This document shows, in pieces, positions 2,550 to 55,943 of a stretch of DNA of 64,000 nucleotides (within the stretch, counting starts at the first letter, position 1; the number at the start of each line of letters is the position of its first letter). Origin of the DNA: a virus; the IMG/VR virus record IMGVR_UViG_3300017963_000018, positions 1 to 64,000 of that record, one strand, 5' to 3'. The notes below the pieces were generated by a model. The model was not told the origin of the DNA, ran no database searches, and saw only the letters and a program-made list of their open reading frames with translations. Made by a program: the position numbers and the translations under genes.

Positions 2550-2566
2550 AGAAAGTGGAGAGAAGA

Positions 2567-3550
2567 ATGAAGAGATTGGTTTTGATCCTCGTTTTGTTTG
2601 TGTCGCATCTTGTCCATGGTGCGACGTGAGGGGGCAACACTTGTGTAGTGAGTCAGGCTGGCTCGCTTCAAACATTTTTTGCCCCAAGCTCCTTTTCTAA
2701 AAGTGGTGGGAGAGAGAGCCACGTGTCTATTATATATATGCGTGAAAAGCGTAATAAAGGCTGGTATGGTTCAGACACGTGGCACTCTCCTAACCACGAA
2801 ACGGTCGAAATAAGTCAAACCCTATTGTCGTTTGAGCACCAAATGCCAAACATATGGCCCTATGACGTACCCTGGAGTCTATCCTTCACGGCACCTTATA
2901 TGGAGATTGTCCACGAATATGCAGACCAACCAGACCGGGTTACAAGCGGCATAGGCGACGTTATCGTGTCGGGAAACTGGTTTATCATAGGCAAGCCACC
3001 GGAACACGCAGATATGGAAGCCTGGCTCCGGCTGCCGTCATACAGCCTGATATTAAGCGGGGGGCTGTCTTTGCCCACGGGAAGCATTGAACGAATACCG
3101 GAATTCACCGAAAGCACAAACACAGAAACCTTTATTCCATTGGGCGCCGGCGTAGTTAGGCCAATGATCGGCATTCACGCAATGATCGACTGGGGTGGCT
3201 TGGTAGGGCACCTTCAATTTTCAAAGGTTGCTACAGTGAAGCCTAACCGATATGGCTATGAACCCGGTGACAATACGACTTACAGGGTGGGCTTAGGCGC
3301 ACGGGTGCAAGAAGACGTGCAGGTCGGCTTAATGCTTGATATGTCGCACTTACAAACAGACAAGGTCAACGGAAGAAAGCTGGCAAGGGGTGGTGGCTGG
3401 CGCTGCGCTGTTCAGCCACAAATGCAATGGAGACCTTCGCCAGATTACACAATATACGGCGCGGTAAACGTACCGTTTTACCATTCGTATGATTTTCCAA
3501 CACTGGATAGTAGGTGCCGGCTGGAGATCGGCATTAGGTTTAATTTCTGA
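2567..3550 (+). CDS. Outer-membrane beta-barrel-like protein interrupted by an in-frame TGA
   Basis: ATG 2567, with GGAG 6 nt upstream, opens MKRLVLILVLFVSHLVHGAT, a textbook signal peptide. A TGA follows at 2627-2629. The same frame then stays open for 300 more codons to a second TGA at 3548-3550. The downstream part has alternating beta-strand pattern, Gly-rich turns and a C-terminal Phe (ending GIRFNF), the signature of Gram-negative outer-membrane barrels; it most resembles MetA/phenol-degradation-type porin-like proteins. The GTG at 2648 has no ribosome site and would lack the signal. Read-through, Sec insertion, a nonsense mutation or a sequencing error are all possible. Confidence 0.6.
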
Positions 3551-8149: not shown

Positions 8150-8596
8150 ATGAAGAGAATTAAGAAACACTGGGAGAGGGCCATTTTGGTATTAATGGCT
8201 ATTTGTATTGCACTGCTAATCTTCGGTGCAGGGGAACCCCAAGGCAATGGTACTGAAGAATCTCCATTCTACGCACCGTCACGACAAGAACTTACCCTTG
8301 AATGGAACAACAACAACATCGGAAACCTCACCTATGGAATCCACGCCGAGATCTATAATGCCGATAACGCTTTGGTCCACAGCTTCTCAGTCACCGGTGA
8401 TGGCATATTTAACCCAGCGCTGGAACAACACCGAATCATTCTGTACGAACATATCAGGGATCTGCCCAATGGAGTTTATTGGCTACAAATCCGCGTCGAA
8501 GACCCACAAGGCAATCTCAGCGATTGGAGCGATCGCTGCTGGTTCGAAAAAATGTTCGCAACTGTAAACCGACCCACAGGATGTAAAATATTTTAG
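8150..8596 (+). CDS. Membrane-anchored protein with fibronectin-III-like domain
   Basis: GGAAGGAAAG precedes ATG 8150. Residues 11-27 form one hydrophobic segment after a basic start (MKRIKKHWER), a signal anchor. Residues about 45-140 are beta-rich with LEWN...YGIHAEIYNA...LPNGVYWLQIRVED...DWSD, the pattern of fibronectin type III folds. The domain would face the periplasm. A surface or exclusion role is possible. No enzyme motif is seen. Confidence 0.55.
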   Translation: MKRIKKHWERAILVLMAICIALLIFGAGEPQGNGTEESPFYAPSRQELTLEWNNNNIGNLTYGIHAEIYNADNALVHSFSVTGDGIFNPALEQHRIILYEHIRDLPNGVYWLQIRVEDPQGNLSDWSDRCWFEKMFATVNRPTGCKIF

Positions 8597-8598
8597 CA

Positions 8599-8715
8599 TT
8601 TTAGTTGGATCCGTCTAAACGACGAAAAAATTTCCCATTTTAGATAGGCCCAACTAAACGGTGAAAATTTTTCTGGTTTTAGTCAGGCCAAACTAAACGG
8701 TGATTTTTTATAGGA
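8599..8715 (+). repeat. Three tandem 39-bp repeats with internal dyads
   Basis: TTTTAG begins at 8599, 8638 and 8677, a spacing of exactly 39 bp. Each unit reads TTTTAG, about 10 variable bases, then CTAAACG and an A/T-rich tract. The TTTAG/CTAAA ends can pair, so each unit may form a small hairpin. The array fills the gap between two genes and ends at the ribosome site of the next gene. It could be a protein-binding array (operators or iterons) or tandem weak terminators. Confidence 0.75.
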
Positions 8716-21681: not shown

Positions 21682-22328
21682 GATACAAAGTAGAGAAGAC
21701 ATTGCCGAAGGAAATCACAGAAGGCCTCAAGAAGCCAATGATGCACGTCAGCGAATTCCCGTGGTTCGTGAAGTCCATAGAATTGGCCGCACAGGAGGGC
21801 CCTAAAGGGATCTTCGTTGAAATCGGCGTTCGTAAGGGTAAGTCCTTCGCTTGTCTTTTGCAGGCCTTAAACCGTACAGGAGCCCCCCAGAGACAGATAC
21901 ACTCGATAGAGCCTGTTGCGGGATCCAGGAACTATTGGGACTTGTATCGAAAGAAGTTCGGAGAAGATATCCCATGTGAGTACTACCGTGGGTTTAGCCA
22001 AGACCCAGATATTGTCAACAAGATTACCGCACCTATTGCGTGGTTATACATTGACGGCTGCCATTGTTTTGAGTGTGTCTGGGAAGACATTGACACTTGG
22101 GGGCCAAAGGTAACCCCCGGTGGGATTATGGTGTTTCACGATACGCGGATATCGAAGAACTACAATAAGACCGATTACTGTATCCGGCTGGGGGCCAGGC
22201 GGCGCTGGGGCGTGAAGCCGGCGATTATGTCGGCGCGTGGAATGAAGAACTTCGAAGTTTTATTCAGGGCTGAAAGCGGCGGAAGCGCGCCGGGGCTTGT
22301 CGCATATGTGAAGAAAGGTAGGAGATAA
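21678..22328 (+). CDS. SAM-dependent methyltransferase, Methyltransf_24-like (copy 4)
   Basis: ATG 21678 overlaps the previous stop (ATGA); longer versions would run into the previous gene. FVEIGVRKGKSFA (about 47), YIDGCHCFECV (about 125) and GGIMVFHDTR (about 147) give the motif set. DGCHCFECV closely matches copy 5 at 23103 (DGCHCFDCV), so the two probably arose by duplication. Its stop is coupled to the next gene. Confidence 0.75.
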   Translation: MRYKVEKTLPKEITEGLKKPMMHVSEFPWFVKSIELAAQEGPKGIFVEIGVRKGKSFACLLQALNRTGAPQRQIHSIEPVAGSRNYWDLYRKKFGEDIPCEYYRGFSQDPDIVNKITAPIAWLYIDGCHCFECVWEDIDTWGPKVTPGGIMVFHDTRISKNYNKTDYCIRLGARRRWGVKPAIMSARGMKNFEVLFRAESGGSAPGLVAYVKKGRR

Positions 22329-23350
22329 TGGCTGATTTGCGATACGCTGGGACCAAGCTAACAGGGCTATCGGGGCTAAAAAAGAAGCTAAAAGGTATGC
22401 CTGTTAAGACGGCGATCATTACATGTTCGGGAACAAGCTTCAAAGGCTATGACGATAGCTGGGCGCCGAAGTCTTGGCCACGATTTGCGGTCAATGAAAC
22501 AATCAAAGAAATGCAGGGTGCCGATTACTGGGTTCTGGCAGATAGCGAAATAGCGCACCAATATTCAAAGCACTGCCCAGAAGAAACGACAGTTTTGGCA
22601 ATGCGGCAGGCAACTACATTGGTTGGGCACAGGAAGAGGTATCTGCAGAATCATGTGGTCTACAGTGTCGATTCCATGAATAATGTGAAACAGCGCTGGG
22701 ATAACGGGTATCAGTTCTTTAGTCGTGGAACGGTGATGATCGGGGCCATTGAAATGGCACGGTGGCTGGGGTTTACGCGGTTCTTTGTTTTTGGCCTGGA
22801 TTGCTTTAGGACGAAGGCCGGTTATTACTATGACGGTCGTAAGCCACAGCATGCATCGGAATGGAAGACTATAGAGATTGAGCGTGTTAGGGGACAGCAT
22901 AAGAACGGCGACATATGGGTTACTTCGCGACTAAAGCGAATGATCCAGAAGTTAGACGAGGTCAAAGGGGCCGGTTTGTGGAACGACATAGAGGTGTATT
23001 GTGTGAATTCCCCCGATTCACAACAAACGGTTGTTCCCAAGATGACGGTGGAAGAATTCAAAGCGAAGGTAGAAGTGTTTAGAAAAGAAGAGGAGAGGGC
23101 ACGTGAAAGCAGCAACAGAGGAAGATCTGCAAACGTTGACGATAGAGGACAGCGAGGGCTTGACGATAGCGGGGGGCGAGAAGTGCACCTACCTAAGAAG
23201 CCTCGAAGAGGCCGCCCTCCTGGTTCAGGTAAGAAACGCAACCGACCTATGCAAAGTAACGCCACCCCAGATCCCGATGCGGCCAGTGTTCGTGGAGATC
23301 GGGACGCACCAGGGAAGGGGGGCGGCGGCGATAATCAAGTGCCTGAATAA
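22328..23350 (+). CDS. DUF115/GT42-like putative transferase with basic, disordered tail (copy 2 of 5)
   Basis: Core motifs are ITCSGTSFKGYDD (about 31), RFAVNETI (about 54) and a FFSRGTVMIGAIEMARWLGF...VFGLD segment (about 136-160). From about residue 250 the sequence becomes low-complexity, charged and Gly-rich with RRGRPPGSGKK, an AT-hook-like patch. That tail is encoded by DNA (23103-23350) that also encodes, in another frame, the start of the next methyltransferase. The tail may therefore be a by-product of the overlap rather than a real domain. Confidence 0.5.
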   Translation: MADLRYAGTKLTGLSGLKKKLKGMPVKTAIITCSGTSFKGYDDSWAPKSWPRFAVNETIKEMQGADYWVLADSEIAHQYSKHCPEETTVLAMRQATTLVGHRKRYLQNHVVYSVDSMNNVKQRWDNGYQFFSRGTVMIGAIEMARWLGFTRFFVFGLDCFRTKAGYYYDGRKPQHASEWKTIEIERVRGQHKNGDIWVTSRLKRMIQKLDEVKGAGLWNDIEVYCVNSPDSQQTVVPKMTVEEFKAKVEVFRKEEERARESSNRGRSANVDDRGQRGLDDSGGREVHLPKKPRRGRPPGSGKKRNRPMQSNATPDPDAASVRGDRDAPGKGGGGDNQVPE

Positions 23351-39979: not shown

Positions 39980-40649
39980 GGGGCCTATACCGGAGTTCAA
40001 AGCGTGGATGGCAAGTTATGCTGATGATGACGGCGTTGGCCCCCCGGAATGGATTGTTGAAGAGCGTGAAAGAATACGGAAGGCCTTATATACCCGTAAA
40101 CGCGAATACACGAAATGGATTCGTGAGGGGATTCTCGAGAAGTCTGTAGTGAAGGTCTATCCGATAGGGCCGATAAATTTCCCGATTGAATGGTTTGTAA
40201 GTTCGCGGTGGTGCGAACGCAGAAACTATGTTCCCTTAGCCCGTGACGAAGAAAGCTGGAGATTTTCGTGGGAATACTGGAAGGGCGCCGGTAGCTATAG
40301 GGACATAAAGGGGAATATCGAGAAGCATGGAATGCGCAGGGCAATCTATGCATTCTATTATGTCAACTACGATGTAGAGGCGAATAAACTACAGCATCCT
40401 TGTTTTGCATATCATTTAGAGAACCTTGAGTGGCCCATGTTTATTGCAAGCACGGGTAATGAACGTATACCTATGGCTTGGTTTGAGTGGGGGTGGAAGA
40501 CGGTACCAACCATGGTAATGGTTAGGGACTGTGGCCATTCCCCTGAATTCTCGGCACTCCTAAAGGGGTTTATCGACGGTTTTATCCACAAGCACTGGAA
40601 GCCTAATTTAGAAGTTTTGCGCACAATTGATGAGAGAGGCGAAGTATGA
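39972..40649 (+). CDS. Hypothetical protein, 225 aa, possibly ParB-like
   Basis: It overlaps the previous gene by 8 nt. The middle is rich in Trp, Tyr and Arg. Near residue 160, ASTGNERIPMAWFEWGWKTVPTMVM resembles the ParB/Srx-type core in which a G-N-x-R loop is followed by 'VP.vv'. Together with HPCFAYHLEN before it, this fits a 'read value, look up entry' ParB-like fold, but the match is weak. No enzyme can be named. Confidence 0.4.
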   Translation: MGRGPIPEFKAWMASYADDDGVGPPEWIVEERERIRKALYTRKREYTKWIREGILEKSVVKVYPIGPINFPIEWFVSSRWCERRNYVPLARDEESWRFSWEYWKGAGSYRDIKGNIEKHGMRRAIYAFYYVNYDVEANKLQHPCFAYHLENLEWPMFIASTGNERIPMAWFEWGWKTVPTMVMVRDCGHSPEFSALLKGFIDGFIHKHWKPNLEVLRTIDERGEV

Positions 40650-41962
40650 AAAATAAGCAAACCGACTTTAGCGGCGTAATGCGGTCAATCAAGGATACTG
40701 GGGAACGGCCGAAAATCGCGGTTGTCTTTGGTGTGTGTAACGAATACCCAACAATATTGGGAACGCTTTTCTCGTTTATCGAAGAACTTGAGTTCTGGGG
40801 CTACCCCTATGAATTGATCGTTGTGGATAACATGTCTACGGATAATACCGCTTGGATCCTCAAGGACAAATTGCGGCGTTGGGTTAGAAATGACATATTG
40901 AAAGTGATTGAGTGGAACGAGAAACCAGCTAATGTGACCGTACGGAATGTGGGCATGAGGGAGACAGATGCCGAGTTCGTCTTCATGTCCGACGGTCACA
41001 TTAGTGTTAAAATAGGGACGTGTCACGGGATCATTCAGAAATGGATTGCTGAGGGGAAAAGGGGCCTATTTCATTCAGCAATCAATATCTGGGGTGACAC
41101 GACAGATATTCGCTGTTACGGCTATGATCTTAAATTAAAGGAACGGTTCTGGGGGAATTTGTGCCGGGGGATCCCCGACGAGGCATGGAATGGTGATATT
41201 CCCATGCCGTATAACGTGCCCATGGCGTCGCATTGTTGCCTTGGCGCCGGGCGTGAGGAGTTTCTTGATTTCGGTGGGTATGCGGAAAGCTTTCGTTGTT
41301 ATGGGGGTGGGGAGCCCTATTTAGACCTTCTATGGTGGCTTTACGGGTCTAAGGTCTGGATTACGCCGGAGGGTCTATTTAGACATGCCTTTGGCGTTAA
41401 TGCTGAATGGCGCAAGGTTACCGGTGGCCGTATGAGCGTAAAGGACAAGAACAACGTCAGGGCCTATATAGAGCTTGAAGGGGACGCGGGGAAAGAACGA
41501 TCAGCCCTCCGGCTTCTACCGAGGAGTACCCACAAATTGGCCAAAGAAATCAAAAAAGGCACCTTTTCGGCAGAAGAGGCCATAAAGCAATTGGCGGAGA
41601 TATGGCCTCGAATTGTGCGAAGCCGGGTCCAATGCAAGGATGGAACGCAGCGTTCTGAGCTTCTACGGGGGGATGAGTACTTGCATTACTCCCGGGGGTA
41701 TTCGTGGAACAATGAGCAGTTCCAGTTCAACTTCATGATGTCGGCATATTTGATCGGGGGCTATAAGTGGCTTCAGAGTCGCTATGCCGCGTATTTCGAG
41801 GGGCGCAAGGGAAACCCCCGGTATGTGGAAGAATTACAGGATCTGCGCCGACAGGTGCTTTCTGAGGGAAGCGAGCAGCGAAAGGTTATTGAAAGTCGGC
41901 AGATTATGTCCCTTGATGACCTTTTGGAAAGAAAACCATGGAACAATTTCAAAACCTCATGA
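40646..41962 (+). CDS. GT2 glycosyltransferase resembling polypeptide GalNAc-transferases
   Basis: IAVVFGVCNEYPTILGTLFS (about 24-43) and IVVDNMSTDNT (about 57) form the GT-A nucleotide site. FMSDGH (about 113) takes the DxH place used as the metal site in GalNAc-transferase-type enzymes. CYGGGEPYLDLLWWLYG (about 217) matches their conserved 'WGGEN-x-E-L' acceptor region, though E-P-Y-L replaces E-N-x-E-L. A helical C-terminal domain of about 130 residues follows. It is the last gene before the Ser/Thr-repeat protein, which makes it a candidate initiating O-glycosyltransferase (inference). Confidence 0.65.
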   Translation: MKNKQTDFSGVMRSIKDTGERPKIAVVFGVCNEYPTILGTLFSFIEELEFWGYPYELIVVDNMSTDNTAWILKDKLRRWVRNDILKVIEWNEKPANVTVRNVGMRETDAEFVFMSDGHISVKIGTCHGIIQKWIAEGKRGLFHSAINIWGDTTDIRCYGYDLKLKERFWGNLCRGIPDEAWNGDIPMPYNVPMASHCCLGAGREEFLDFGGYAESFRCYGGGEPYLDLLWWLYGSKVWITPEGLFRHAFGVNAEWRKVTGGRMSVKDKNNVRAYIELEGDAGKERSALRLLPRSTHKLAKEIKKGTFSAEEAIKQLAEIWPRIVRSRVQCKDGTQRSELLRGDEYLHYSRGYSWNNEQFQFNFMMSAYLIGGYKWLQSRYAAYFEGRKGNPRYVEELQDLRRQVLSEGSEQRKVIESRQIMSLDDLLERKPWNNFKTS

Positions 41963-42564: not shown

Positions 42565-45500
42565 ATGGCTACGATATTTACTTGCGAAGTAGGCCCAGGG
42601 CAGACTGATTACACGTCATTCTCTGCGTGGGAATCAGCAGTAGACGGTAACTACACTTCATCGGGTACCATTATGGTATTCGGTGGTTCGCGTGTAGGAT
42701 CTGTACCGGATGGGCAGAGTGTAACGGGGTCTAATTCAGGAGCGACAGGGACATGTTTGCACTGTACTGCTACACAAATTTGTGTGGTAGTGAACAGTGG
42801 GACGTTTGAGTCTGGGGAAGAAATACGGCGTAATGCATCGCATTACTTTTTGACATCTGATGCTGGTGATTCAGCAATTCCAAAAGCGGCACTTGGCACA
42901 GATGGTGATGCGGAAGATGATCAATACTTTGGTGGTTGGACATTAGACTCGACCAACTATTGTATTCTTGCAGCTGCCTCGGGGCATGAGGCGCCAATAG
43001 ATGGTTACGACTCAAATCTGTACCGATTTGAAACCGACACAACTAGTGGGTGGAAGGCGGCGCTTTATTTAGATGAAAACGATGTTCATGTAGAGAACTT
43101 ACAGTTTAATAACTCCACTGGCTCTAACATGTGTATCGGGATACACGCTGCCTACGCTGGAGTTGTAGTTTCTGGCTGCCGTATCCATAAAAGTAATGGA
43201 ACCTCTACATCTGCATATTACGGTATACGCTACTACGACGATATAGAGGTATATAACTCTGTCTTTGAAATGAAGACGTCGAGTAATACTAGAGGTCTAT
43301 GGGCAGCTAGTGGGAATACCACCACAACAAAGATTTACAACAATGTCTTTAGAGGCGACGGTACAGGTACTGGATTTTATGGTCAGAGTGCAAATGCTGC
43401 GGTTCTTCGTAATAACTTCTTTTATGGGTTCAGCGACGACATGTTGCTGGAAAGCGGGGACACCAGCGACTACAACGCTTCAGACGACGGCGATGGAACA
43501 AATGCATACACGGCTACAGACTTAGATGACAATTTTGTAGACGCTGCGAATGGTGATTTTACGCTGGTGTCTGGAGCTGGCGTTATTGGACAAGGCATAG
43601 GGCCTGGGGCAACTGACGGAACAGATGTCCCAACTACAGATATAGAAGGGACAACACGGTCTGGTACCACTTGTGATATCGGCGCTTATGAATACCCATC
43701 AGTGGCAACGACAAGTGTATCTACAACAGCGTCGAGTTCTCTTTCAACAACAGCCAGCTCTTCTTACTCCAGCACCGCTTCAAGCTCGTATTCAAGCACA
43801 GCCAGCTCATCTTTTTCCTCTACGGCATCGACATCGGCTTCTGTTTCGCAAACCGACCCGCCATTATTTGACACAGAAACGTATTTGGAGATCGATTCCG
43901 GAGATTTAACTGGTGGGACCGGTACAGTAATGGACGAGGTCTCCGGTATATGCCATGCGATTGACCGGGACTATATAGCCGTAGTTGACGACAACGGCGC
44001 AATGAGGGAATACTCCCGACAATTTGAAGCGGTACAGGCTGGTGAAGTAAGTCTCCCCGGAGGCACTGGCGATGGGCAGTTTGACGATGTTGAGGGAATA
44101 GTCTATGTAGGTGACTGGTTTACCGATTGGGATTATTGCATATTAGACGAAGGTGATGGCACTAGCCCTACGCGCTTGCATTTCTTCCCATTTTCTCCAG
44201 GACAAACATCACTAAGCTCTGGGGATGTAACCACTTATGAATTACCTAAAATCCCCTTTTACTCAGGGACGTATGGTGGGGAGGGTGCCGAAGGTGTTGC
44301 GTTTGATCCAAATACCGGAAAGTTCTATGTGTCCAACCAGTCTGATACACAGGCGGATGCTGGTATTTGGGAAGTAGATATTACCGTTGCGGACACTGAC
44401 GGTAATCCTGAACATAACCTTTTGTATAGTTATGTCGGCGCCGGTATTGTTAACTCAACTGATGGCGTTGCCTCCCCCGTCGCGATAGCAGATCTTTTCC
44501 ATGGATCAATGATCGGTGGTGGGCTGTCTTATGATCGATCCCTGTTTATCCTATTTAGAGACACTACGGCCGATAGGCGGGTAGTTGTTCAGGTAGACAC
44601 TAGTACCGGTACGGTTTTAGGCAGTCACCACCAGCACGGTTTAGCCGGGCAAGTGGAGGGGATGTGTTTTGATTCACTGGCATCCCGTGGAGACCTGTTT
44701 GTTTGTGGCGAAGAAGCGTCTATGGGCGCGACGAATATCGTTCGCTATAGCTTTCAGGGAGGCGGCCCGTCGACTTCGCTGTCAACTTCTATAACAACTA
44801 CTGCTTCAACGTCAGCATCAGTTACTCCCCCTCCTGTTCCTGATACGGTTGTCGAGGTTGCTTTCGGGGCAAGTTGGCGCCATGACGACCAAAATATTGA
44901 TCGTACGGATGATCAAACAGATGGCGCTTTTTATGACCTTGTGTACGATACATCAGACTGGACCTATCCTGAACAATCTGAAACAGATCATAATGCCGCT
45001 TATTATTATGGTGCTATTAGTTCATTAGAGACGGATATCTCTCTGGGGACAAATATCCCTAGTCAGTCAGGCAATGCGGACACTCGGCCATTATACTTCG
45101 TTCATGATTTTGAGCTGTCTAATGTTTCCGCAATCACAGAAGCATACATAGACCATCTGGGTGAAGACGGGATATATGTTTGGTTAAACGGGACCCTATT
45201 AACTAGCGACAATGTTACAGGTGCATTTTCGCATGGTATGAATGCTGATAGTGCTAGAAGTCCCGAGGGGCAGTCAATAAAATACAACCTAGACACAGAT
45301 GAGCTTGACTTATTTATAGAAGGGACTAATAGGCTCGCTGCTGCAGTCATTGCTGTAAATAATACGAGTTCTGATGCTATTTTTGATATGCGGCTGGTTG
45401 TTACGAGGCTTGCTTCCGAGACAACATCAGTATCAACTACCGCTTCAAGCTCCTATAGCTCTACGGCTTCAAGCTCCTACAGTTCTACTGCCTCAAGCTC

Positions 45501-48500
45501 CTATAGTTCTACCGCTTCAAGCTCCTATAGCTCTACGGCTTCAAGCTCCTACAGTTCTACTGCCTCAAGCTCCTATAGTTCTACCGCTTCAAGCTCACTC
45601 AGCACCACAGCTTCAAGCTCTTACAGTTCTACAGCTTCAAGCTCCTACAGTTCTACTGCTTCAAGTTCCTACAGTTCTACCGCTTCAAGTTCCTACAGTT
45701 CTACCGCTTCAAGTTCTTATAGCTCTACGGCCTCAAGTTCACTTAGTACCACAGCCTCTTCCAGTGTTTCAACAGCTTCTACGCCGCCGTTATTCTGTGC
45801 CGTTGCAGCGTTGTCTTCTACGGAGGAATATCTCGGGGTTCACTTTGAGACAGAAGAAGCTTCTGACGCTTATATAGAATATGGAGTAAGTGCTGGGACT
45901 TACATATATCAGACCACTACCCAAACAAACGAAACAAACTTTAGTTTCGAGATTGGTGGTACTGACTTTAGTCCCGGTGACATGGTTTATTACCGGGCAC
46001 GTATCCGGCTAACTGGTAGCGGTGTATATGCATTGGGAGTACCGCACAGGGCAAGGCTTGCTCGTGCATATTCTGATACGTCAGATTGGACGTGGGTTTT
46101 CGGCGCAGACTCACGAGCAGAAGCAGGCGTAGCAACATCGCCAGAATTTAAAAATGATTTCTGGCCGGCGGTTGGATATCCAGAATATCCCGATGACGAA
46201 TTTCTTGTGTTTGGCGGTGATTGGTTACAAACCGGCACTGGTACTGATTATTGGCGAGCAGCGAGAAATGATACACAAGGGATAGGCCTTGAAAACGAGA
46301 AAGGCGGCGACCTTCCTGTATTTCAAGTGGTTGGGAATCATGAGCGCGACGAGCTTACAGGGAACCGTGATGCCCGCGTAGACCTTTACCCATTAGGCGT
46401 ATTCCTTAACCTCCCATACCAGCAAAATGATACAGATGACCCGTCAGCCCCAGGTTGGTATCAGCGTTATTACTATCACACATGGGGCAATGCGTTATTC
46501 GTATATATGCCCGACGATCTTGATATATATGAAGACACGGATGGGTATATTCAGTGGCCCGCAATGCGGACCTGGTTTGAGGGTATTTGTGAACAGTTCA
46601 AATATTACAAATGGAAGTTTGTAATTACCCATACCAGTTCAGATGAGTCTGATCCCAACCACACAAATACGATTGCTGATTATCCATCAAACCAGGCATG
46701 GTTTAGAAACCTAATAGACGACTATGGGTTTACGGTTCATTGCCATGGCCACTACCATGGTTGGAGATGGCATGAGGCAACAGACGGTTGTAGAGTTGTA
46801 TGTGGAAACTTCGGAGCCCCTGTAACACACACAACGGTTGATGAATGGGTATCCGGTGACCCTGAAGGAAGACGCTTCTGGCGCATTAGGATGAACCAGG
46901 AGTGGATGGGAACCGATGGGTATGTCCATAATGCCGATGCCTGTACATGGGAATGTGTCGACCCATTATCAACAGATACTGAGGTAGAAGAGTATTACGT
47001 AGTATATGCCTCGGATAACCCAGCAGAATCAGGGACAACCAGCTTAACCTCCTCTATATCTACAACAGCTAGCTCATCGTTAAGTACAACAGCCAGTTCG
47101 TCTTACTCAACAACAGCGTCAAGCTCTTACTCCTCAACGGCGAGTTCTTCATATTCAAGTACCGCGTCAAGTTCCTTTAGTTCGACAGCCAGTTCTTCTT
47201 ACTCAAGTACAAAGTCGAGTTCTTTTAGTACAACGGCCAGTTCGTCCTACTCAACAACGGCGTCAAGCTCTTACTCCTCAACGGCGAGTTCTTCCTACTC
47301 AAGTACGGCCAGTTCGTCCTACTCAACAACGGCGTCAAGTTCTTACTCCTCAACTGCGAGTTCGTCATATTCGAGTACCGCATCAAGCTCTTATTCCACA
47401 ACAGCCAGTTCTTCTTATTCAAGTACGGCCAGTTCGTCCTACTCAAGCACAGCGTCAAGTTCTTATTCGTCAACCGCCAGTTCTTCCTATTCAAGTACAG
47501 CGTCAAGCTCCCTTAGCACAACAGCCAGTTCTTCCTACTCCACTACCGCGTCGAGTTCTTATTCTTCAACGGCAAGTTCTTCATATTCAAGTACTAAGAG
47601 TTCGTCATACTCAAGTACCGCATCAAGCTCCTTTTCAAGTAGTTACTCCAGCACAGCTTCCTCATCGTTAACGCTAAGTTCTACGTCCGCAAGTAGTTCT
47701 TTATCAACGACCGCCTCAAGCTCCCTATCCACAACTGCAAGTTCGTCATATTCAAGTACTAAGAGTTCGTCGTTCTCTAGCACTAAGTCAAGTTCATTTA
47801 GTTCGTCTGTAAGCACGTCATTTTCCAGCACGGCCAGTTCGTCATTTTCAAGCACTAAGTCAAGTTCTTTCAGTTCGACGAAGAGTTCGTCATTCTCAAG
47901 TACCGCCTCAAGCTCGTATTCGTCAACAGCAAGTTCGTCGTACTCAAGCACAGCGTCAAGCTCGTATAGTTCGACTGTCTCGAGTTCATTGTCGACGACT
48001 ATGTCGAGTTCCGTATCAACAACAAAGTCGAGTTCGGTGTCTACGACTGTTCCGTGGTATTACGCTTCGGAAATGGACATCACTGAAGATGACGGTGTTA
48101 CAGGGGTAATCGAGTATATAAGAGGTGTTGACGCTGACGAAGTTGTCGTCGACGAGGCTTCTTCCGAGCAGTTTAAGATAGAATTAAGATTTGGCCTTGC
48201 TGGACAAACGGTGTCATCCCCGAGTAGTGACCTGGACGTTTTAATCACGGGTTGGTATGACGGGGATGCATCGCATAACGTCAAACTTGAGCAATACAAC
48301 TGGGCGACAACGGACTGGGACAGTGTTACCGCCAGCGCGACAGACTTCCCAAGCGTTGGGTCGGAGCAAAGCTACCAGTTCAAGCTGTTAAGTTCAGACA
48401 CCGACAATACATACGAGGACACAGGGCGCATTTATCTACGGATTCACCATACCAGTAGTGGTGAATCTGATTACTATTTCCACCTTGACGATGTCCATTT

Positions 48501-48981
48501 GGCAGGAACCGTTCCGACAACGTCAGCGTCAACGTCGGTTTCTTCCACCGTGTCAACGTCAGCATCGAGTTCGCTATCGAGTTCGGTTTCCACAACGGCA
48601 AGTTCGTCTTATTCCAGTTCATTATCGTCAACGGTGTCAACGTCGGCGTCGAGTTCACTATCAAGCTCGGTTTCAACAACTGCGAGTTCGTCATATTCCA
48701 GTACGGTATCAACGACTGCTTCTACCACCGCTTCGACGACAGCAAGCACTTCTGCAAGCACCACGGCAAGTTCCTCGGTATCGACAACAGCGTCAACGTC
48801 CGCTTCAAGTTCCGTATCAACGACAATGTCAAGCTCCTTCTCTTCTACCGGGTCGACTTCAATGTCAACGCCGATTCCACCGGAAGGAGCCTTTGACCTT
48901 TCATTAAGGGACGAGTCAATAAAACTTGCACTGCGTGACGAATCAATAAAATTAAGCTTACGGAGGCTTTCAGCGTTTTAG
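42565..48981 (+). CDS. Giant modular tail/adhesin-like protein with Ser/Thr-rich mucin-like linkers and a metallophosphoesterase domain
   Basis: The 2138-residue protein starts behind GGGAGAG. Order of parts: 1-380 beta-helix-like (repeated short strands; ENLQFNNST, YNSVFEM, YNNVFRG); 380-431 Ser/Thr linker; 432-735 propeller-like (DEVSGICHAID..., GVAFDPNTGKFYVSN); 736-758 linker; 759-950 jelly-roll/galactose-binding-like (DGIYVWLNGTLL); 952-1073 linker; 1080-1170 fibronectin-like; 1174-1476 metallophosphoesterase with GADSR, GGDW, GNHERD, ITHTS and HGHYHG; 1491-1830 long linker; 1831-1984 beta domain; 1985-2108 linker; then a duplicated LRDESIKL end. Linkers are built from SSSYSSTA-type units. 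It probably lies on the virion surface and binds or cuts host glycans. Confidence 0.75.
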   Translation: MATIFTCEVGPGQTDYTSFSAWESAVDGNYTSSGTIMVFGGSRVGSVPDGQSVTGSNSGATGTCLHCTATQICVVVNSGTFESGEEIRRNASHYFLTSDAGDSAIPKAALGTDGDAEDDQYFGGWTLDSTNYCILAAASGHEAPIDGYDSNLYRFETDTTSGWKAALYLDENDVHVENLQFNNSTGSNMCIGIHAAYAGVVVSGCRIHKSNGTSTSAYYGIRYYDDIEVYNSVFEMKTSSNTRGLWAASGNTTTTKIYNNVFRGDGTGTGFYGQSANAAVLRNNFFYGFSDDMLLESGDTSDYNASDDGDGTNAYTATDLDDNFVDAANGDFTLVSGAGVIGQGIGPGATDGTDVPTTDIEGTTRSGTTCDIGAYEYPSVATTSVSTTASSSLSTTASSSYSSTASSSYSSTASSSFSSTASTSASVSQTDPPLFDTETYLEIDSGDLTGGTGTVMDEVSGICHAIDRDYIAVVDDNGAMREYSRQFEAVQAGEVSLPGGTGDGQFDDVEGIVYVGDWFTDWDYCILDEGDGTSPTRLHFFPFSPGQTSLSSGDVTTYELPKIPFYSGTYGGEGAEGVAFDPNTGKFYVSNQSDTQADAGIWEVDITVADTDGNPEHNLLYSYVGAGIVNSTDGVASPVAIADLFHGSMIGGGLSYDRSLFILFRDTTADRRVVVQVDTSTGTVLGSHHQHGLAGQVEGMCFDSLASRGDLFVCGEEASMGATNIVRYSFQGGGPSTSLSTSITTTASTSASVTPPPVPDTVVEVAFGASWRHDDQNIDRTDDQTDGAFYDLVYDTSDWTYPEQSETDHNAAYYYGAISSLETDISLGTNIPSQSGNADTRPLYFVHDFELSNVSAITEAYIDHLGEDGIYVWLNGTLLTSDNVTGAFSHGMNADSARSPEGQSIKYNLDTDELDLFIEGTNRLAAAVIAVNNTSSDAIFDMRLVVTRLASETTSVSTTASSSYSSTASSSYSSTASSSYSSTASSSYSSTASSSYSSTASSSYSSTASSSLSTTASSSYSSTASSSYSSTASSSYSSTASSSYSSTASSSYSSTASSSLSTTASSSVSTASTPPLFCAVAALSSTEEYLGVHFETEEASDAYIEYGVSAGTYIYQTTTQTNETNFSFEIGGTDFSPGDMVYYRARIRLTGSGVYALGVPHRARLARAYSDTSDWTWVFGADSRAEAGVATSPEFKNDFWPAVGYPEYPDDEFLVFGGDWLQTGTGTDYWRAARNDTQGIGLENEKGGDLPVFQVVGNHERDELTGNRDARVDLYPLGVFLNLPYQQNDTDDPSAPGWYQRYYYHTWGNALFVYMPDDLDIYEDTDGYIQWPAMRTWFEGICEQFKYYKWKFVITHTSSDESDPNHTNTIADYPSNQAWFRNLIDDYGFTVHCHGHYHGWRWHEATDGCRVVCGNFGAPVTHTTVDEWVSGDPEGRRFWRIRMNQEWMGTDGYVHNADACTWECVDPLSTDTEVEEYYVVYASDNPAESGTTSLTSSISTTASSSLSTTASSSYSTTASSSYSSTASSSYSSTASSSFSSTASSSYSSTKSSSFSTTASSSYSTTASSSYSSTASSSYSSTASSSYSTTASSSYSSTASSSYSSTASSSYSTTASSSYSSTASSSYSSTASSSYSSTASSSYSSTASSSLSTTASSSYSTTASSSYSSTASSSYSSTKSSSYSSTASSSFSSSYSSTASSSLTLSSTSASSSLSTTASSSLSTTASSSYSSTKSSSFSSTKSSSFSSSVSTSFSSTASSSFSSTKSSSFSSTKSSSFSSTASSSYSSTASSSYSSTASSSYSSTVSSSLSTTMSSSVSTTKSSSVSTTVPWYYASEMDITEDDGVTGVIEYIRGVDADEVVVDEASSEQFKIELRFGLAGQTVSSPSSDLDVLITGWYDGDASHNVKLEQYNWATTDWDSVTASATDFPSVGSEQSYQFKLLSSDTDNTYEDTGRIYLRIHHTSSGESDYYFHLDDVHLAGTVPTTSASTSVSSTVSTSASSSLSSSVSTTASSSYSSSLSSTVSTSASSSLSSSVSTTASSSYSSTVSTTASTTASTTASTSASTTASSSVSTTASTSASSSVSTTMSSSFSSTGSTSMSTPIPPEGAFDLSLRDESIKLALRDESIKLSLRRLSAF
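43701..43857 (+). repeat. Ser/Thr-rich linker 1
   Basis: Units of eight residues (SSSYSSTA and variants) run for about 50 residues between the beta-helix-like and propeller-like domains. At DNA level the copies differ in codons (agc/tca/tct), so the repeat is kept at protein level. Confidence 0.8.
45418..45783 (+). repeat. Ser/Thr/Tyr-rich linker (second long one)
   Basis: About 120 residues of SSSYSSTA units precede the metallophosphoesterase part. Here neighbouring copies are nearly identical in DNA (TCAAGCTCCTACAGTTCTAC and close variants), pointing to recent unit duplication. Confidence 0.8.
47035..48053 (+). repeat. Ser/Thr/Tyr-rich linker (longest)
   Basis: About 340 residues consist almost only of Ser, Thr, Ala and Tyr/Phe with a few Lys (TKSSSF). 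Thr and Ser spacing every 3-4 residues offers several hundred hydroxyls for O-glycans. - strand open frames here are shadows of the low-complexity codons. Confidence 0.85.
48517..48888 (+). repeat. Ser/Thr-rich linker (C-terminal)
   Basis: About 124 residues rich in STS and STA units with little Tyr separate the last beta domain from the short C-terminal end, in which LRDESIKL occurs twice. Confidence 0.8.
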
Positions 48982-53632: not shown

Positions 53633-54172
53633 ATGGCGATTTCAATTGAACTTGACATGAAAGAATGGAACGAAGGCATCAAGAAGCTTTCGAAACAGTT
53701 TACCGGTGAGGCTATTACCTTCGAAATGGAGGTAGTTGCCAACCAGGTGCTAAAGAAGGCTATTGATTCCCCCATTCCTTCGGGCTTACGAATGCTCGAG
53801 TTGTCGGCTACGACAGTTCGTAATAATTCTAAGCTCGAAGTAGCTTTCGGGTTCTCGAAGTCTTATGCCGCCTTCCAAGATCAGCCAGGGAAGAGTGGAT
53901 CGATTCAAATTAAGCCACGGGTGAAAAAGGCATTGTATATACCTTTGACACGGGCTGGCGAAAGCCATCGATATGGGCTGAATCCGGTTACGGCCGAAGG
54001 GTTAAAACCCGGCGTTGATTTCATTATTCGGCGCAAGGCCTTAATTAGGATTAAGCCATATGGCTCGGCATTAGGGCCGAATCACTATTTTTCGGAAACG
54101 TTAAAAAGAAATGTGAACTTCATGCTTGAAGCGCTGACTAAGCGTTTGCAGCAGAAGTTGGGTAGTCAGTAA
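53633..54172 (+). CDS. Tail-completion/HK97 gp10-like protein, 179 aa
   Basis: The 179 residues open ISIELDMKEWNEGIKKLSKQF, a gp10/tail-completion-like start, with SGLRMLELSATTVRNNSK in the middle and a helical end. Its place between the closure protein and the tail terminator-like gene fits. It would join head and tail or cap the tube. Confidence 0.55.
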   Translation: MAISIELDMKEWNEGIKKLSKQFTGEAITFEMEVVANQVLKKAIDSPIPSGLRMLELSATTVRNNSKLEVAFGFSKSYAAFQDQPGKSGSIQIKPRVKKALYIPLTRAGESHRYGLNPVTAEGLKPGVDFIIRRKALIRIKPYGSALGPNHYFSETLKRNVNFMLEALTKRLQQKLGSQ

Positions 54173-54671: not shown

Positions 54672-55454
54672 ATGTCCCAAGAAGTACACAATTCTACTAA
54701 TAACATCAACATTCCACACAATGTATCCGTGTGGTTTCAGCCGGATTTCACTGGCTCTTACACAGAATTAGGAGATTTGCTTGTCGATGGCATTACTCTA
54801 TCACCCGATTTCGCCGAGCACAGGTCGTATCGAAACGGCATTAACGCTCTGCGAAAGCGAATGGTAGCCGCTAAATCGGCATCGATCACTGCGACGCTTA
54901 ACGAACCCAACATTGTCAACCTTCAGAGGGTGCTATTTGGTGGAACAATTGCGACAAGTCAAACAGTGACCGCCTATGAGGGCAAACATCTAACCGTGGC
55001 AGATGACGGTGGAATCTATGTAGATCTGGCAGATGCCGGAGAAACATCGTTCAGTGACATTACGGTTACTGGCGTTTACGCGGTAACGGATGTTCAGGAG
55101 GGCACCAATCTAATTGCTGCCAATATCCTCCCTGACACCGATGGCCACGTGACACTTAATGAAACAGACACAGGTTTGTCGTCCGGAGATATCGTTTACG
55201 TTCGCTATGAGATTTCAGTTGATTCGTTGTATTCGACCGAGATCTTCGGTGCGTCTAATGCAACGGTAGAGGGCGCGGCTATGGTCCAAGCACGAAACCT
55301 TCAGGGTGGCGTTGTGCAGATCTGGCAGCTTTCCTCCGTTCATTTGGCAGCCAATGGCGACATGACGTATCCCTTGGACGCTGTCCAATCCATTCCGATC
55401 TTGTTGACACTTCAGGAAAGAAGTGGCTCGTTCGGGACGGTGTACGCGAAATAA
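54672..55454 (+). CDS. Major tail (tube) protein
   Basis: The 260-residue protein is all-beta with SVWFQPDFTGSYTELGDLLVDGI near the start, a Gly/Asp-rich insertion (about 100-175) and IPILLTLQERSGSFGTVYAK at the end. It sits between the terminator-like gene and the tail chaperone, the fixed place of tail tube genes in siphoviruses. The insertion may be an extra Ig-like lobe on the tube surface. Confidence 0.75.
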   Translation: MSQEVHNSTNNINIPHNVSVWFQPDFTGSYTELGDLLVDGITLSPDFAEHRSYRNGINALRKRMVAAKSASITATLNEPNIVNLQRVLFGGTIATSQTVTAYEGKHLTVADDGGIYVDLADAGETSFSDITVTGVYAVTDVQEGTNLIAANILPDTDGHVTLNETDTGLSSGDIVYVRYEISVDSLYSTEIFGASNATVEGAAMVQARNLQGGVVQIWQLSSVHLAANGDMTYPLDAVQSIPILLTLQERSGSFGTVYAK

Positions 55455-55485
55455 TTGTCGGAGCCAGCTTGATTAGCTTCGACAA
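55455..55485 (+). other. Hairpin between tail-tube and chaperone genes
   Basis: TTGTCG (55455-55460) pairs with CGACAA (55480-55485), and AGC/GCT lengthens the stem. There is no T run. It may lower the amount of transcript passing from the abundant tube gene to the chaperone. Confidence 0.4.
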
Positions 55486-55502
55486 AACAATGAGGAGGCG
55501 GG

Positions 55503-55943
55503 ATGTCGAAGATACTTCGTCATGCGACTTACGAGATGGTGGGCGAAGGAGGGCAAAGCTTGCGGTTGAAGAAATGGTCAACTGCGAAGCTTTTCCTCCT
55601 TGTCCGCGATATCGGATCGATTCTTGAGGAATCGTTTGATGGTCTTTTGTTGGATAAGATATCTGAGGTGCAGCTTATTACCCGTTTGGTCATAAGCCTT
55701 TGCCGGTCTGAGAAACGCGCTGTGCGTTTGATCCGCGAAACCTTGGAAGAACCCAAACTTACTGAGAAGGAGATTCTGGGATGGGATCCTGAAGACTTTT
55801 TGGGATGTCTTAGGGCGGTTTTTGAGTTAAACCTAACTAAGGACTTATCAAAAAACTTCGAAGGGCTTCTGGGCCTAATCGGGAATCAGAGCCCGGCTGG
55901 AATGAAGAAGTCGGAAAAGCCCTTGACAGAAGCCTCTCAGTAA
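55503..55943 (+). CDS. Tail assembly chaperone, short (gpG-like) product
   Basis: ATG 55503 follows GAGGAGGCGGG. The 146-residue helical protein is the zero-frame product of the two-part chaperone gene upstream of the tape measure. The last 28 residues lie in the region where the -1 frame is also open. It coats and holds the tape measure during tail assembly. Confidence 0.75.
   Translation: MSKILRHATYEMVGEGGQSLRLKKWSTAKLFLLVRDIGSILEESFDGLLLDKISEVQLITRLVISLCRSEKRAVRLIRETLEEPKLTEKEILGWDPEDFLGCLRAVFELNLTKDLSKNFEGLLGLIGNQSPAGMKKSEKPLTEASQ

Follow-up and report, generated by a model that had tools for sequence, protein, structure and literature searches.

We found a gene that is very probably a single unit, encoding a signal peptide and an outer-membrane-barrel-like protein and interrupted by one in-frame TGA, in the virus record IMGVR_UViG_3300017963_000018 (90,025 bases), of which positions 1 to 64,000 were analyzed here as the window. 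In the most likely reading, which we consider probable, it is a phage barrel gene in which this one codon is nonsense, miscalled or polymorphic. The RNA directly behind the TGA is predicted to form an unusually strong SECIS-like fold, which a lesion does not account for, and decoding of the UGA, with Sec insertion and leaky readthrough taken together, is a live reading, albeit a minority one.

The preliminary description had read positions 2567-3550 as a signal peptide with a good ribosome site, followed after one TGA by a barrel-like frame, and the sequence bears this out (Table 1). The barrel part opens with GGNTCVVSQ and lies in the same frame as the signal peptide across the TGA. Over both strands of the 64 kb, a ribosome site with an ATG and a signal-like peptide occurs just three times, and the remaining two resemble lipoprotein starts. 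The rarity of such starts, together with the PF13557 match and the unique C-terminal signature described below, makes it very probable that signal peptide and barrel belong together with the TGA inside one gene. The downstream part had also been described as having neither a signal nor a ribosome site of its own. The former holds, as neither of the two internal start candidates would give the barrel a signal peptide, while the latter is nearly right: GAGGGGG (2628-2634) stands too far ahead of the in-frame GTG 2648, and the in-frame GTG 2723 has GGGAG (2708-2712) ahead of it within a long hairpin. The barrel gene is present as a single copy in the 90,025-base record. In codon use, the barrel part ranks low among the phage genes, as would fit a recent acquisition or relaxed selection.

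Table 1. Features of the interrupted barrel gene (window coordinates).
Feature	Position	Strand	Remark or basis
Ribosome site GGAGAG	2557-2562	+	4 nt ahead of ATG 2567; sequence
Signal peptide MKRLVLILVLFVSHLVHGAT, 20 residues	2567-2626	+	Plausible signal peptidase site between VHG and A or between HGA and T
RNA hairpin in signal-peptide codons, 8 bp, ends 1 nt before TGA	2602-2625	+	Folding
In-frame TGA, codon 21, next base G	2627-2629	+	Sequence
Outer-membrane-barrel-like part, 306 codons and stop TGA 3548-3550	2630-3550	+	PF13557 sub-threshold match, C-terminal signature
RNA hairpin from 1 nt after TGA, conforms to bacterial SECIS model	2631-2685	+	Folding
Long RNA hairpin, about 30 bp, small bulges; unexplained	2703-2797	+	Folding

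The protein is predicted to be a barrel-like outer-membrane protein from a profile match and from its C-terminus. The PF13557 (Phenol_MetA_deg) profile matches the barrel part over residues 84-266 with 18.9 bits (E 0.0017), which is under the curated cut-off of 22 bits and places the protein outside the family by that measure. The part closes with LEIGIRFNF, an alternating hydrophobic signature with a final aromatic residue that is present in only one of the 118 ORFs of at least 90 aa in the window. The signal peptide belonging to such a barrel is present in frame upstream and is joined to it only if the TGA is read. Single-sequence structure prediction of the barrel part, run without an alignment, gave a mean pLDDT of 29.5.

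Peptide patterns, tblastn and a scan for the degenerate GY-PGD motif revealed no barrel homologue in IMG/VR, GTDB contigs, phages or plasmids, and the same outcome was obtained when the patterns were widened with made-up conservative barrel variants. The lone plasmid match (H1) turned out to be a PucR-like regulator, i.e., a chance match and not a relative of the barrel. The gene with its hairpin region had no blastn match among phages and plasmids, the barrel gene matched none of the NCBIfam models, and Rfam yielded nothing above threshold, its weak miRNA matches being generic hairpins. No near relative of the 90,025-base record was found; the closest phages were found through the terminase (41-58% identity), and these terminase-related phages, most of whose records are fragments, contained no match to the barrel. 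Related barrels may have Cys residues right behind the signal peptide, which carries no weight as evidence here.

The phage reads TGA as a normal stop in the standard code. The 52 ORFs of at least 150 codons in the window end in TGA (16), TAA (23) or TAG (13), no TGA-ended ORF of this size has more than 35 open in-frame codons past its stop, and the barrel is the single such case in the record. No tRNA gene, including tRNA-Sec and suppressor tRNA, was found in the 90,025 bases. A reassigned TGA code is rejected on these grounds, in agreement with the initial view that TGA is a normal stop elsewhere and a changed code unlikely.

In the reading that we prefer, an accessory phage gene in the standard code would encode a PF13557-like outer-membrane barrel with a signal peptide, and a premature TGA just past this peptide would reflect a nonsense mutation of recent origin, variation within the population or an error in the consensus. 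The sequence as written would mainly yield the signal peptide, and the full-length barrel would be made at most in traces via basal UGA readthrough. Presumably the barrel is exported, or once was, and modifies the surface of the host. In favor of a lesion are the lone occurrence of such a TGA in the record, the use of TGA as a normal stop, and the presence of only one gene copy and no tRNA gene. Since the frame is otherwise undamaged across its 306 codons, the lesion, if any, is recent. Nonsense changes and consensus errors are frequent in metagenome contigs. In the selenoproteome study of the Sargasso Sea, TGA cases known from a single sequence were set apart as candidates only, as an in-frame TGA can arise from sequencing error (PMC1088965). 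The preliminary description had offered recoding or a plain nonsense mutation, which is the right pair of alternatives; since there is no positive sign of TGA decoding and no homologue was found, plain nonsense stays the more likely of the two.

What speaks against a lesion is the predicted folding of the RNA. The sense RNA of 2590-2810 reaches -89.5 kcal/mol and is the strongest fold for its composition among 1,063 windows of 221 bases (the second and third strongest are at 53641-53861 and 55441-55700). It has a z of -6.5 against dinucleotide shuffles and -5.0 against copies with synonymous codons permuted within the gene, with corresponding codon-permuted values of -3.4 for the hairpin after the TGA (2/500 copies as good) and -5.5 for the long hairpin (0/500), all of which are overstated because the intervals were picked after the fold had been seen, the window-wide scan being less affected. 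The fold of the reverse strand of 2590-2810 is weaker (-65.8), which favors an RNA structure over a DNA palindrome. The hairpin after the TGA consists of a lower stem (2631-2637/2679-2685), an upper stem (2647-2655/2659-2667) and a GGC loop (2656-2658). The core of the long hairpin is a 17-nt inverted repeat (2712-2728/2773-2789) inside the coding frame, with no further copy in the record. As the long hairpin is explained by neither SECIS function nor readthrough, the strong folding near the TGA may have another cause.

Bacterial SECIS elements have been modeled with an apical loop of 3-9 nt, an upper stem of 4-16 bp, a G in the first two loop positions, a spacing of 16-37 nt and an energy of -7.5 kcal/mol or lower (PMC13188914). 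The hairpin 2631-2685 agrees with this model in all respects: its loop is closed by an A-U pair, its upper stem has 9 bp, its spacing is 26 nt and its energy is -11.9 (45 nt) or -26.6 kcal/mol (60 nt). In a long context, the upper-stem pairs have probabilities of 0.96-1.0 and the loop-closing pair 0.66. The E. coli formate dehydrogenase genes fdhF, fdnG and fdoG, used as controls, pass the same script (3/3). When about 1,200 TGAs were sampled from every frame of the window, 15-21% passed by chance under a lax rule and 6-8% under a strict rule (G followed by G or U), whereas only 2.3% (45 nt) or 0.1% (60 nt) passed the strict rule with an equal energy. A look for a SECIS-like fold past the TGA had been proposed in the preliminary description before any folding was done, which makes this a fair single test, and such a fold was indeed found. 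By our estimate, the result lifts the odds of UGA decoding about ten-fold from a low base, which is not sufficient.

Decoding could take two routes. In the first, the Sec system of the host (SelB, tRNA-Sec) would read the UGA with 2631-2685 as SECIS and insert Sec just past the signal peptide. We regard this as unlikely, even though the hairpin passes the model with a 60-nt energy rarely reached by chance and is stronger than 498 of the 500 codon-permuted copies. Bacterial outer-membrane selenoproteins exist, namely an MtrB/PioB-type barrel and a TonB receptor (PMC13188914), so that a Sec barrel is not absurd. However, no Cys homologue was found, the record has neither tRNA-Sec nor another tRNA gene, a recognised redox motif around the UGA is absent, and loose SECIS matches are common, as the chance rate under the lax rule indicates. 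In addition, folding is even better in the longer hairpin 2703-2797, which cannot serve as the SECIS for the UGA at 2627-2629, and the strong folding may thus have a non-SECIS cause. It is likewise unlikely that a DNA phage encodes an outer-membrane barrel with Sec in it, for which the Sec system of the host would use the SECIS hairpin directly behind the UGA.

In the second route, with the same low likelihood as decoding by the host Sec system, an ordinary near-cognate tRNA would read the UGA in a leaky or stimulated manner, and a small set share of the product would be full-length barrel, as in phage Qbeta. The frame is open at once past the stop and strong 3' structure begins 1 nt after the TGA; structured 3' elements are described to stimulate readthrough in other viruses (Firth et al., 2011, as cited in PMC5009743). 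The short product, however, would consist of the signal peptide alone and would have no obvious use, whereas both products work in the known pairs, and the record contains no second example.

A short leader ORF with regulatory hairpins that control an internal start at GTG 2648 or GTG 2723 is very improbable. The GGGAG ahead of GTG 2723 inside the long hairpin, and the structure over all of 2590-2810, would fit such control, but the barrel would then be made without the very good signal peptide that lies unused in the same frame immediately upstream.

As a mere lesion, the UGA would leave an inactivated cargo gene of the ordinary kind. Decoding of the UGA would instead mean a selenoprotein, or a case of regulated readthrough, in a DNA virus of bacteria; such a gene would tie the virus to selenium-using hosts, and automatic annotation would miss it. 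Phages and viruses go unmentioned in a 2026 review of the prokaryotic selenoproteome (PMC13188914), and, judging from the literature searched, a phage-encoded Sec barrel would be new.

Elsewhere in the window, short repeats with TTTAG and CTAAACGG units were found at 8595-8700, past the gene at 8150-8596, and are perhaps protein-binding sites or terminator-like elements. An ORF of 2138 residues (42565-48981) has a calcineurin-like phosphoesterase domain in mid-protein and, around residue 350, a match to choice-of-anchor Q. Among the phage genes there are also MptE-like and glycosyltransferase-family-2 genes (22328-23350, 40646-41962). Genes that look similar to these by eye stand behind the terminase and capsid genes of a related contig (L005, 8523-10281), and they are perhaps part of a surface-sugar module.

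The gene resembles the PF13557 outer-membrane transporter-like barrels in its weak profile match, signal peptide and C-terminal barrel signature, but differs from them in its score below the curated cut-off, its lack of a sequence neighbor among those searched and its interruption by TGA. Phages carry outer-membrane proteins, such as Lom of lambda and the Lc porin of PA-2, and an outer-membrane barrel as phage cargo is shared with them, although no sequence relation of this barrel was found in phages or PHROGs. With the MtrB/PioB-type (NF041027) and TonB-receptor (NF049945) selenoprotein genes it has in common an in-frame UGA and a directly downstream hairpin that fits the SECIS model; unlike those, it is phage-borne, matches no NCBIfam model, and was found with neither Cys/Sec relatives nor Sec machinery. 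In phage Qbeta, the coat protein is extended by UGA readthrough and both products have roles, whereas the short product here is only a signal peptide; what the two have in common is a phage gene with a UGA followed by an in-frame extension.
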